Positions 25,296-30,883 of a DNA stretch of 64,000 nucleotides are shown piece after piece. Every line of letters begins with the position of its first letter. The first letter of the stretch is position 1. Position numbers and translations under genes: made by a program. This DNA comes from Ignavibacteriaceae bacterium. Lineage in GTDB: Bacteria > Bacteroidota > Ignavibacteria > Ignavibacteriales > Ignavibacteriaceae. The stretch spans positions 1 through 64,000 of the forward strand of contig JABWCL010000001.1 of assembly GCA_013360295.1 (NCBI GenBank). The letters run 5' to 3'. Under the pieces are notes generated by a model. The model was not told where the DNA came from, ran no database searches, and saw only the letters and a program-made list of their open reading frames with translations.

Positions 25296-26024
25296 TTGTA
25301 TAGTTACTCTCTTCGCGTAAGTTATGATGGCACTGAATTTACCGGCTGGCAAATTCAGGCAAACGCCCGGACTGTCCAGGGAGAGTTAACTTCAGCATTA
25401 TCTAAAATTTTATCTTCCAGAATTTCAGTTACGGGCGCCGGAAGGACTGACACCGGCGTCCATTCCATAGGGCAGATTGCAAGTTTTCTATCCCCTGTTA
25501 AACTGTCATCTTATGAATTCCTCTATTCCGTCAATTCCATTCTTCCATTTAGCATCGCTGTAAGTGAGTTACAGGAAGTTGAAAGCGGATTTAACGCACG
25601 TTTTGATGCTAAAAGCAGAGTATATTACTATTTTCTTAGTCACGCTAAAGACCCTTTTCTCCATAAGTATTCCTGGTTCAGGTTAGTCCGTCCGGATATC
25701 ACAAAATTAAATTTGATGTCCCGGGAATTATTTGGTAGTCACGACTTTTCATCCTTTACTAAGCATGCCGGCGAGGTTGATAATCTTATCTGTACAGTAA
25801 AATCTATCAAATGGATTGGGAGGAGAAAACTAACCTACGTAAGAATTGAAGCCGACCGATTCCTTCATGGGATGGTTAGGGCTATGGTCGGAACCTTGAT
25901 CAGATATTGGGATCACCCGGATAACTCGGAAATCATTAAGAATATATTACTGAGTTGTGACAGAAAGGAAGCATCTGAATCAGCGCCTGCAAAAGGACTA
26001 TTTTTGTATAAAATAAATTATTAA
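25296..26024 (+). CDS. truA: tRNA pseudouridine synthase A
   Basis: The 242-residue enzyme makes pseudouridine at positions 38-40 of the tRNA anticodon arm. The catalytic aspartate is Asp52 in GRTDTGVHS. SYDGTEFTGWQIQ and the FLHGMVRAMVGTL motif confirm the family. The start is a TTG without a ribosome-binding site; no ATG lies before the conserved YDGT motif. Confidence 0.95.
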   Translation: MYSYSLRVSYDGTEFTGWQIQANARTVQGELTSALSKILSSRISVTGAGRTDTGVHSIGQIASFLSPVKLSSYEFLYSVNSILPFSIAVSELQEVESGFNARFDAKSRVYYYFLSHAKDPFLHKYSWFRLVRPDITKLNLMSRELFGSHDFSSFTKHAGEVDNLICTVKSIKWIGRRKLTYVRIEADRFLHGMVRAMVGTLIRYWDHPDNSEIIKNILLSCDRKEASESAPAKGLFLYKINY

Positions 26025-28043: not shown

Positions 28044-28826
28044 ATGGACCTTTCCACTCTGCTTTTTGAACAAAAAAAGAATTATGCGATAGTTACGATA
28101 AACCGTCCGGATAAATTAAACGCACTTAACAATACTGTATTAACAGAACTTAAACAGGTTTTTTCAAATCTTTCTGTTTTGGATGAAATCAGGTGCGTGA
28201 TAGTTACCGGGGCGGGCGCAAAATCATTCGTTGCAGGTGCCGACATTGCAGAAATTAATAAACTGGATGTCCCACAGGCAAAGGTGTTTGCTGAATTCGG
28301 TCAGTCAGTGTTCTCCTTAATTGAAGAAATGAATAAACCTGTTATCGCGGCAATTAACGGTTTCGCTCTTGGCGGAGGTGCCGAACTTGCCTGGTCCTGC
28401 CACATAAGAATTTGTTCTGAAAACGCCCTGTTTGGGCAACCTGAAGTTGACCTTGGGTTGATTCCGGGATACGGCGGAACACAGCGGCTCCCCCGGCTTA
28501 TAAGTTCATCACTGGCTGCGCAATTGCTGCTGACAGGTGAAAAAATTGATGCTCAAAAAGCATTAGCTCTTGGGCTGGTCAATAATGTCTTCAAACCCGA
28601 AGAGTTATTACCAAAAGCTGAAGAACTTGCGGATAAGATATCAGCTAAACCTGCGCTAGCTGTCCAAAACATTCTCAAGGCACTTTCGTCTACACGGCAA
28701 ACCGGACTTAATGAAGGGCTTGCCATCGAAGCGCTTTTGTTCTCTCTAACCTGCGGCTCTGATGATTTCCACGAGGGAACTAAGGCATTCCTGGAAAAAA
28801 GAAAAGCCGCGTTCAAACATAAATAG
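28044..28826 (+). CDS. enoyl-CoA hydratase/isomerase family protein (crotonase)
   Basis: The 260-residue enzyme has the oxyanion-hole segments AGADIAE and FALGGGAE and the two catalytic glutamates Glu114 and Glu134 (GQPEVDLGLIPGYGGTQRL). With both acids present it should hydrate enoyl-CoA, as in beta-oxidation or butanoate metabolism. No thiolase or dehydrogenase is nearby. A strong AGGAGA precedes the ATG. It stops with TAG, after which the same frame remains open into the next gene. Confidence 0.93.
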   Translation: MDLSTLLFEQKKNYAIVTINRPDKLNALNNTVLTELKQVFSNLSVLDEIRCVIVTGAGAKSFVAGADIAEINKLDVPQAKVFAEFGQSVFSLIEEMNKPVIAAINGFALGGGAELAWSCHIRICSENALFGQPEVDLGLIPGYGGTQRLPRLISSSLAAQLLLTGEKIDAQKALALGLVNNVFKPEELLPKAEELADKISAKPALAVQNILKALSSTRQTGLNEGLAIEALLFSLTCGSDDFHEGTKAFLEKRKAAFKHK

Positions 28827-28901
28827 GGTACGAGCATCAGTTCCCCGGGCTATAAAAGGGTCTTTCTTTTCCTCATAGGATTAAACTTTTTTTTCCTGCT
28901 T

Positions 28902-29807
28902 GTGCTTCTTGGATTGAGCATATATAAAAAGGATAAATCTGTAATGGAAACCCCTGTAAAAAAGAATTTGCATGAGATTGTAAGAAGACATTTCAGTGAT
29001 TTTGGATTACCTGACGTGCCTTTCCAGACTTTGAGGGATACTCTCACAATACAATTTGAAAGTTTATCCAACGACTTCCCGGTTCATTACCTTATTCACG
29101 AACTTCAAAAGGAACTCAGAGGAAGTGACAACTACGTCACAGGCATTGAATCCGAAATAAACATGCGGACTTTCTTCGTTATAACTGATGAGGAAGAGCC
29201 TCTGAAAATAGTATTTAATTTTCAGAGAAGTGAACAGGACATTGGCAGGGAAATAGTCTTATTTGTTAAAAAGAACATAACTGACGAGTCATTATTTATA
29301 AATACGATCGAATCACTCCCCTTTCCGGTTACGGTTATCCTCACTCCTTCGGAGAGAGAGAGAGTGTTCGGTAAGTTATTACACGAGCATGATCTCAGCT
29401 TCGGAGTTTTAATTACCCCGGCAATAACGGAGGAACTGTATAAGCTATCTGAAGAATATACTCCGCTCCGCATCCGGCAGACGACAAACCGCCTCGCTAT
29501 TGATTTTGAGAAATCGAATAACTTCCTGATTGAAACTGCTGCCGTGAAATATCGTTCCGCTACCTATGACCAAATCAGAAAAAGAATAATAGCAGCGAAT
29601 AAACCGGTGTTCCTCGCCGATACACTTATAAACCTGACCAGTTATGATGAGAGTGAAATCAGGGAAAGAATTCTGAAAATCGTGGTATCACTCAAACCTT
29701 CACGGCAGGAAATAATACTATTCCCTTTCGAAAACCTTAATCTTGTATCTTCTCTGATTCCGACGCTAAGCAAAAGGAGCATTAGAATTGCTGAGCTAAG
29801 GCGCTGA
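28902..29807 (+). CDS. single-pass membrane-anchored protein, possible divergent polysaccharide deacetylase relative
   Basis: The GTG at 28902 gives 301 residues, but the open frame begins directly after the crotonase TAG and upstream codons 28857-28917 encode a hydrophobic helix (RVFLFLIGLNFFFLLVLLGL) followed by Lys-Lys. No ATG, GTG or TTG lies before the helix, so the true start may be a rare codon such as ATC at 28836. The C-terminal part (VFLADTLINL, then IILFPFENLNLVSSLIPTL) faintly resembles the YibQ-type divergent polysaccharide deacetylases without their catalytic residues. That is a weak inference. Otherwise function is unknown. Confidence 0.65.
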   Translation: MLLGLSIYKKDKSVMETPVKKNLHEIVRRHFSDFGLPDVPFQTLRDTLTIQFESLSNDFPVHYLIHELQKELRGSDNYVTGIESEINMRTFFVITDEEEPLKIVFNFQRSEQDIGREIVLFVKKNITDESLFINTIESLPFPVTVILTPSERERVFGKLLHEHDLSFGVLITPAITEELYKLSEEYTPLRIRQTTNRLAIDFEKSNNFLIETAAVKYRSATYDQIRKRIIAANKPVFLADTLINLTSYDESEIRERILKIVVSLKPSRQEIILFPFENLNLVSSLIPTLSKRSIRIAELRR

Positions 29808-29941: not shown

Positions 29942-30883
29942 ATGTCACGATATTTTTACTTAACGATACTTTTTGTTTTGATGCTTTTAACGACTGGCGC
30001 CTACGCTGTACCTGTTCCGGACACAACTGACACCGATGACGATACCGAAGGAATGTTTGATGACGAAGACTGGGGAAACTGGAAAAGAAAAAAATGGAAC
30101 TGGGATATGGATTTCGATGCCTGGAGAGGTTTTGATCAGCCCGCGATAAGAGCCAGTTACGGACTCAACCGCACTTCTGTGAAAGATTTCACCACAACTT
30201 TTGGTGATGTTCGCAGTCTCGAAGCCCGGATTGGCTATGTTGATGTTGATCCTTACAGAAAAAACTCTTATCTGGTGGATTATGAGTTCAACTACTTCAA
30301 TTATTATCGTGGCGCCTCCAGTATCGATAAAAGAGTCAGCACCGGTAACGAGATTACCGCGGAGTTGGTCAGGCTTGGAGTTGGTTGGGAAAAAGGTATC
30401 GGGTACAGGATTGGCGACGCAGCCCTGATTCCATATACCTCATATGCCATTGGTTGGACAAAAGCCAATATCCAGAATATACCTGTTGCGGGAATCAGTG
30501 CTCTCGAAAGCGAACGACTGAATTTCTACCATGATAAATATAAATTCGGAGTTAAAACAGAATCCGGAATCATATTGCAGCCGATAAGAAATGTATCAGT
30601 AAGTGCGGCGATGGAAAAATCCTTAATCTACCCAAGGATATTGACTTGGAAAATGGGAGGAAGTTATATGGTTGAAGGAATTGGACAGCATATGATCGAC
30701 GAATTTATGGAAAAAGTTATTGACAATTCCCCATTCGTTGCGCCCATACTTAACGTTGCATTAAAGAGCGCTTTAACTTATTACTTATTTGAAATGAGGC
30801 GCGAAGAAATGAATTTCCCGTTTGAAGGTGTAGCCCCTCTTTATCACGAAGACTTCAAACTATCAGTGAATTTCATATTCTAA
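29942..30883 (+). CDS. exported protein, probable outer-membrane barrel, unknown
   Basis: The 313-residue protein has a signal peptide (cleaved after TGAYA), an acidic tract (DTTDTDDDTEGMFDDEDW) and a Trp/Lys/Asp-rich stretch. From residue 75 on, alternating residues suggest a beta-barrel (SYGLNRTSVKDFTTTFGDV, LEARIGYVDVDPY, YLVDYEFNYFNYY), ending KLSVNFIF. I do not recognise a family. AAGGAG precedes the ATG by eight bases and a strong terminator follows. Confidence 0.72.
   Translation: MSRYFYLTILFVLMLLTTGAYAVPVPDTTDTDDDTEGMFDDEDWGNWKRKKWNWDMDFDAWRGFDQPAIRASYGLNRTSVKDFTTTFGDVRSLEARIGYVDVDPYRKNSYLVDYEFNYFNYYRGASSIDKRVSTGNEITAELVRLGVGWEKGIGYRIGDAALIPYTSYAIGWTKANIQNIPVAGISALESERLNFYHDKYKFGVKTESGIILQPIRNVSVSAAMEKSLIYPRILTWKMGGSYMVEGIGQHMIDEFMEKVIDNSPFVAPILNVALKSALTYYLFEMRREEMNFPFEGVAPLYHEDFKLSVNFIF

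Follow-up and report, generated by a model that had tools for sequence, protein, structure and literature searches.

A probable near-cognate ATC start for a membrane-anchored protein gene downstream of a crotonase gene in an Ignavibacteriaceae bacterium

The reading frame that follows the amber stop of an enoyl-CoA hydratase (crotonase) gene in the Ignavibacteriaceae genome G000 most likely belongs to a real gene with a near-cognate start codon, a further example of a rare, already known way of starting translation. Judging from the sequence, it is probable that this gene starts at the ATC at 28836-28838 by means of an AGGG motif, that its product is a membrane-anchored degenerate deacetylase and that the weak start results in a low level of the protein. 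The features of the locus are listed in Table 1 with their positions in the window, by which we mean the whole stretch of 64,000 nucleotides that was analysed.

Table 1. Features of the crotonase and membrane-protein locus, in positions of the window
Feature	Position	Strand	Remarks
Enoyl-CoA hydratase (crotonase) gene	28044..28826	+	ATG start, TAG stop; PF00378 E=3.5e-63
Crotonase amber stop TAG	28824..28826	+	Overlaps the Shine-Dalgarno-like AGGG; basis sequence
Shine-Dalgarno-like AGGG	28825..28828	+	7 nt before ATC; duplex -3.9 kcal/mol with the anti-SD tail
Proposed start codon ATC	28836..28838	+	Sole ATT/ATC/ATA/CTG codon between TAG and helix
Proposed membrane-anchored protein gene, 323 aa	28836..29807	+	Order-wide family, 151/164 genomes
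N-terminal transmembrane helix	28860..28925	+	Hydrophobic run; model helix codons 7-33; conserved positions 16 and 23
First canonical start codon GTG, within helix	28902..28904	+	Probably not the start; canonical codon of relatives upstream of helix
NodB / divergent polysaccharide deacetylase fold domain	29241..29804	+	Structure match; probably without metal site

The first-pass annotation had claimed that the frame of the crotonase remains open beyond its TAG, and this was confirmed, as 326 codons (28827-29804) can be read before the stop codon TGA at 29805-29807. Its second claim, that the first ATG, GTG or TTG is a GTG in the middle of the helix, also proved correct; this GTG is codon 26 and lies inside the hydrophobic run VFLFLIGLNFFFLLVLLGL. 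The product of 301 residues proposed there is obtained if counting begins at the GTG, whereas from the ATC the protein has 323 residues. A membrane anchor past the crotonase stop is seen both as the hydrophobic run and as a helix predicted by AlphaFold at codons 7-33. Since residues 9-325 align to the same-genus genome G001 (56% identity), the model places a helix here, and two helix positions upstream of the GTG (16 and 23) are leucine in about 90% of 144 relatives, the frame is more than a chance one. In G000 the leucine at position 16 is present and position 23 is F. For the crotonase itself, 54 of 59 genomes (G000 counted) gave a match at E<=1e-70, and no Rfam family was found between 27000 and 31000 at the gathering threshold. 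The ORF after the membrane protein (29942-30883) encodes 313 amino acids with a signal-like N-terminus and has no Pfam match at E<=1.

As one sequence cannot show where translation starts, relatives were compared. The family was found in 43 of 59 genomes by whole-genome sequence search and in 151 of the 164 genomes of the order by profile search, G000 being counted in both. In a phylum-wide sample it was present in 33 of 296 genomes, 27 of them from the order, one from the class (4.8e-26) and five with weak matches. ORFs were obtained from 146 of the 151 genomes, G020 (fetched later) and G064, G079, G105 and G127 (whose matches lack the 5' part) being left out, and G035 and G159 were dropped for an incomplete 5' end, which gave 144 members for analysis. 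Within 1.5 kb upstream, 126 of the 144 loci have a crotonase gene in the same orientation, some of the other contigs being short, and the median distance from the crotonase stop to the assigned canonical start is 20.5 nt (116 loci).

In 138 of these 144 members, read by eye, a canonical codon precedes the helix. The alignment of relatives that had been proposed as a check thus points upstream, and orthologues starting inside the helix, which would have spoken against an upstream start, were not what was found. Among the 11 members labelled automatically as having no start, G009, G034, G099, G100 and G027 were counted as canonical, with TTG or GTG before the helix. Six members have no canonical codon before the helix and carry only ATC (G000 and G136), ATT (G025) or CTG (G007, G032 and G051) there. 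These codons were assigned by eye, and in G032 and G051 the CTG was chosen over another near-cognate codon for its Shine-Dalgarno site and position. The first canonical codon is number 85 in G032 and number 79 in G025, so that a start there would lose conserved sequence; in G136 a TTG at codon 14 could serve as start. G007 and G032 are of the same genus and have the CTG in common; their identity is 33% in the 54 nt upstream of this codon and 81% in the 54 nt that begin with it, and in G032 an in-frame TAA and the CTG are separated by only eight codons. Unlike this CTG, which the two species share, the ATC of G000 is not conserved in G001 of the same genus. The proposed CTG of G051 (L184) is overlapped by a mini-ORF in another frame, ATG-CCC-TGA, which could couple termination to re-initiation.

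The lack of a canonical start recurs in this family and was not seen in its neighbours. For the control, ORFs of at least 90 codons from loci L091-L190 were clustered, clusters with at least 12 members were taken, each family was aligned, and a canonical codon was sought at or before profile position 12. Eight of the 26 clusters (7, 12, 14, 15, 18, 21, 23 and 24) were left out as antisense ORFs because a longer ORF of the opposite strand covers 65-100% of their members, but no member of the 18 clusters that were kept; all 42 flags outside the target family fall in seven of these eight. None of the 582 members of 17 neighbouring control families was without a canonical start, and the same automatic rule flagged 4 of 99 members of the target family, G136 not being flagged and G025 lying outside that set. 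Fisher's test of 6/144 against 0/582 gave p=6e-5, and p=0.0014 when G000 was removed and the genus of G007 and G032 was counted once.

The near-cognate codons are also distinguished by an excess of Shine-Dalgarno (SD) sites. No 16S gene was found in G000, G001, G026 and G056, and the anti-SD sequence was for this reason taken only from G007 and G051, whose 16S 3' ends carry CCTCCTTT, the CCTCC core included. The mean duplex energy was +0.4 for ATG starts (98), -1.6 for GTG (18), -1.6 for TTG (22) and -4.9 for the six near-cognate codons. To guard against a choice of codon guided by its SD site, the best near-cognate codon before the helix was also scored in every member, and it reached -3.9 or lower in five of the six against 5.8% of the 138 canonical members (Mann-Whitney test on these energies, p=0.0002). 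As a background, 12.6% of 3550 internal ATC/ATT/CTG codons reach -4. The site of the window, with a spacer of 7 nt, is modest in strength, and the codon of G136 has no clear SD (-1.5).

The crotonase genes have strong SD sites, with a mean energy of -6.1, and 85% of 86 relatives show the motif there, against 7% of 95 canonical-start members of the target family. The target shares its shortage of SD sites with control family 5 and nearly with family 3. In the window the ORF of family 5 (25296-26024), presumably truA-like, starts with TTG, as in 23 of 68 relatives, and its SD is as poor as that of the target. A trade-off between start codon and SD is visible in the target and in control families 11 and 13. 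It is not a general rule, since in the control families overall weaker start codons did not go with stronger SD sites (p=0.98). These patterns are suggestive of an initiation that may be kept weak in the target gene by different means in different species.

As a positive control we took infC, the gene for initiation factor IF3 and the classical case of a non-canonical start. It was matched in 57 of 59 genomes, and 50 loci (L213-L262) were examined. In 44 of them, that of G000 included, no canonical codon lies before the conserved N-terminus; the six with such a codon before the conserved part are G009, G025, G031, G034, G040 and G042. The placing rule gave a near-cognate codon in 42 (ATC 35, ATT 5, ATA 2; mean SD energy -7.1) and none in eight. 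In these bacteria, at least one gene thus seems to start with ATC or ATT as a matter of course. ATC starts of infC are found for example in L224 and L230, and G000 (L243) and G001 carry ATT there. The membrane-protein gene resembles infC, with its AUU, AUC or AUA start, in having a near-cognate start aided by an SD site. However, infC keeps its near-cognate start across the order, whereas most relatives of the membrane protein start with ATG, GTG or TTG.

Other parallels are known. The E. coli pcnB gene has an AUU start and uses a weak start for low expression, as proposed here, for a different protein. In PMC9845219, where work on the AUU of E. coli infC is cited, the start of infC in E. coli is tied to autocontrol by IF3, while for the membrane-protein family no such control is known. 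In S. aureus infC (AUA), cvfC1 (AUU) and ccpN (AUA) have extended SD motifs, and reporters of cvfC1 and ccpN yielded less than with AUG, according to PMC13009471. These genes are thus similar in combining non-canonical starts with strong SD motifs, but their start codons are shared by relatives and their use has been measured, whereas here the codon varies by species and is proposed from sequence. For CUG an efficiency of 0.86% of that of AUG and a share of 0.024% of bacterial start codons are given in PMC11497404. Neither the family nor the infC starts of the order were found mentioned in the open-licence literature, among the matches listed.

The number of events behind the near-cognate starts depends on how the trees are read. 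The family tree requires at least four changes of start state, and on it G000, G007, G032 and G025 belong with four others to a long-branched group of eight (support 92), so that there may have been fewer events than this count suggests. The crotonase tree, in which G136 is not included, likewise needs four changes; it places G000 with G001, G027 and G095 (support 95), and G025 and G007 weakly. Either the near-cognate starts had several origins or one group retained them while the codon itself changed.

Neither Pfam nor NCBIfam contained a match (E<=1) to the product of the gene. When 26 members were scanned against Pfam, ten families turned up, each in a single member (best E 0.0012), and no pattern was seen; matches in the PDB by sequence (CDC45 over 78 residues, E 0.006) and by profile (HtpG, 0.03-0.11, and an AI-designed TIM barrel, 1.3e-9; 40-55 residues each) were judged to be due to chance. 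The AlphaFold model, made from 26 sequences, has a mean pLDDT of 84 and, behind the N-terminal helix, a mixed alpha/beta body. Its residues ~139-326 were matched by VIA-align to 2nly in first place (Z 16.2, rmsd 2.9 over 182 residues) and to 2qv5 in second (Z 14.4, rmsd 3.2 over 188 residues), and Foldseek gave E 7.8e-5 to 2qv5. We take both structures to be divergent polysaccharide deacetylases of PF04748, the family formerly called DUF610 and known as YibQ.

The likeness to PF04748 therefore concerns the NodB-like fold of a predicted model. The differences are the lack of a sequence match, the lack of a conserved histidine and the presence here of an N-terminal anchor and an extra domain. 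Indeed, the PF04748 model had no match in the whole window genome at E<=1, and the family was absent among the Pfam hits of the 26 members at E<=0.1. Deacetylases of the CE4/NodB type bind a metal through Asp-His-His and have further catalytic residues. In the alignment of 144 members no well-filled column has more than 25% His, and judged by conservation alone this metal site was not recovered. A single-pass membrane-anchored, catalytically dead relative of the deacetylases is thus the most likely identity, with a function suggested by the fold only.

If translation begins at the ATC, the initiator tRNA would read this near-cognate codon with the help of the AGGG. As the AGGG overlaps the crotonase stop, ribosomes that finish the crotonase would be well placed to start the membrane protein. 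The weak ATC would keep the protein at a low level, and most relatives may reach weak initiation otherwise, by an ATG with almost no SD site. Such a rare start at ATC 28836 was the first of four options in the first-pass annotation and is the one best supported, by the relatives, the SD sites and infC.

Amber readthrough, in which some ribosomes would read the TAG at 28824 as an amino acid and produce a fusion of crotonase and membrane anchor, is unlikely. It would agree with the open common frame in the window, with an in-frame TAG before the genes of G000, G007 and G025 and an in-frame TAA before that of G136 (read by eye), with a frame open to the crotonase stop in four of the six against 20 of 121 others (p=0.012) and with a crotonase TAG in four of the six, G051 counted, against 25 of 121. 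Part of the in-frame excess may come from a detection bias, since a frame that extends back from a near-cognate start into the crotonase will probably contain an ATG by chance, and such a start is then overlooked. Nevertheless relatives do not preserve this layout: only 23 of 126 loci share the crotonase frame with no further stop in between, and the crotonase stops vary (TAA 83, TAG 29, TGA 14). G032 shares genus and CTG with G007 but is out of frame with a stop between, and G051 is also out of frame with its crotonase. Moreover, readthrough would need no SD site before the helix, yet five of the six carry one; no pyrrolysine synthetase match was found in G000 at E<=0.001, and TAG ends 8 of the 47 long ORFs of the window, as an ordinary stop would.

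An error in sequencing or assembly is quite unlikely, as is the very recent disappearance of a start at or near 28836-28850. The loss of an ATG, another of the options raised, finds loose agreement in G001, which has GTG ATG at codons 6-7. However, counted from the stop, the codon of G000 that corresponds to this ATG is CCG, two bases off. An error at the ATC is improbable since five other genomes show the same lack, among them the single-contig G007, whose CTG is common to a second species; neither would an error be expected to bring with it an SD at the proper distance.

A start at GTG 28902, with everything before it left untranslated, is very unlikely: this is the first codon that a standard gene caller could use, but a start there removes most of the helix, both leucine positions included, although the preceding region reads as helix and aligns to relatives, which carry their canonical codon upstream. 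A different near-cognate start such as ACG 28830, in frame and one base from ATG, is extremely unlikely, as its spacer to the AGGG is only 1 nt and the ATC is the sole ATT/ATC/ATA/CTG codon before the helix.

With the start at the ATC retained as the preferred reading, a wider one can be offered as a tentative possibility, namely that an order-wide pseudo-deacetylase is held at low translation, that several lineages have swapped to a near-cognate codon with an SD site and that this is a second gene tuned by IF3. If true, the gene would respond to IF3 levels like infC in the same cells. Genes that start with ATC, ATT or CTG can be missed or truncated in standard annotation, and here it is the membrane anchor that is lost. 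The interchange of canonical and near-cognate codons, with a changing ribosome binding site, provides a natural series for the trade-off between start codon and SD strength, and the same series would be suited to asking whether IF3-sensitive starts set the dose of a protein.
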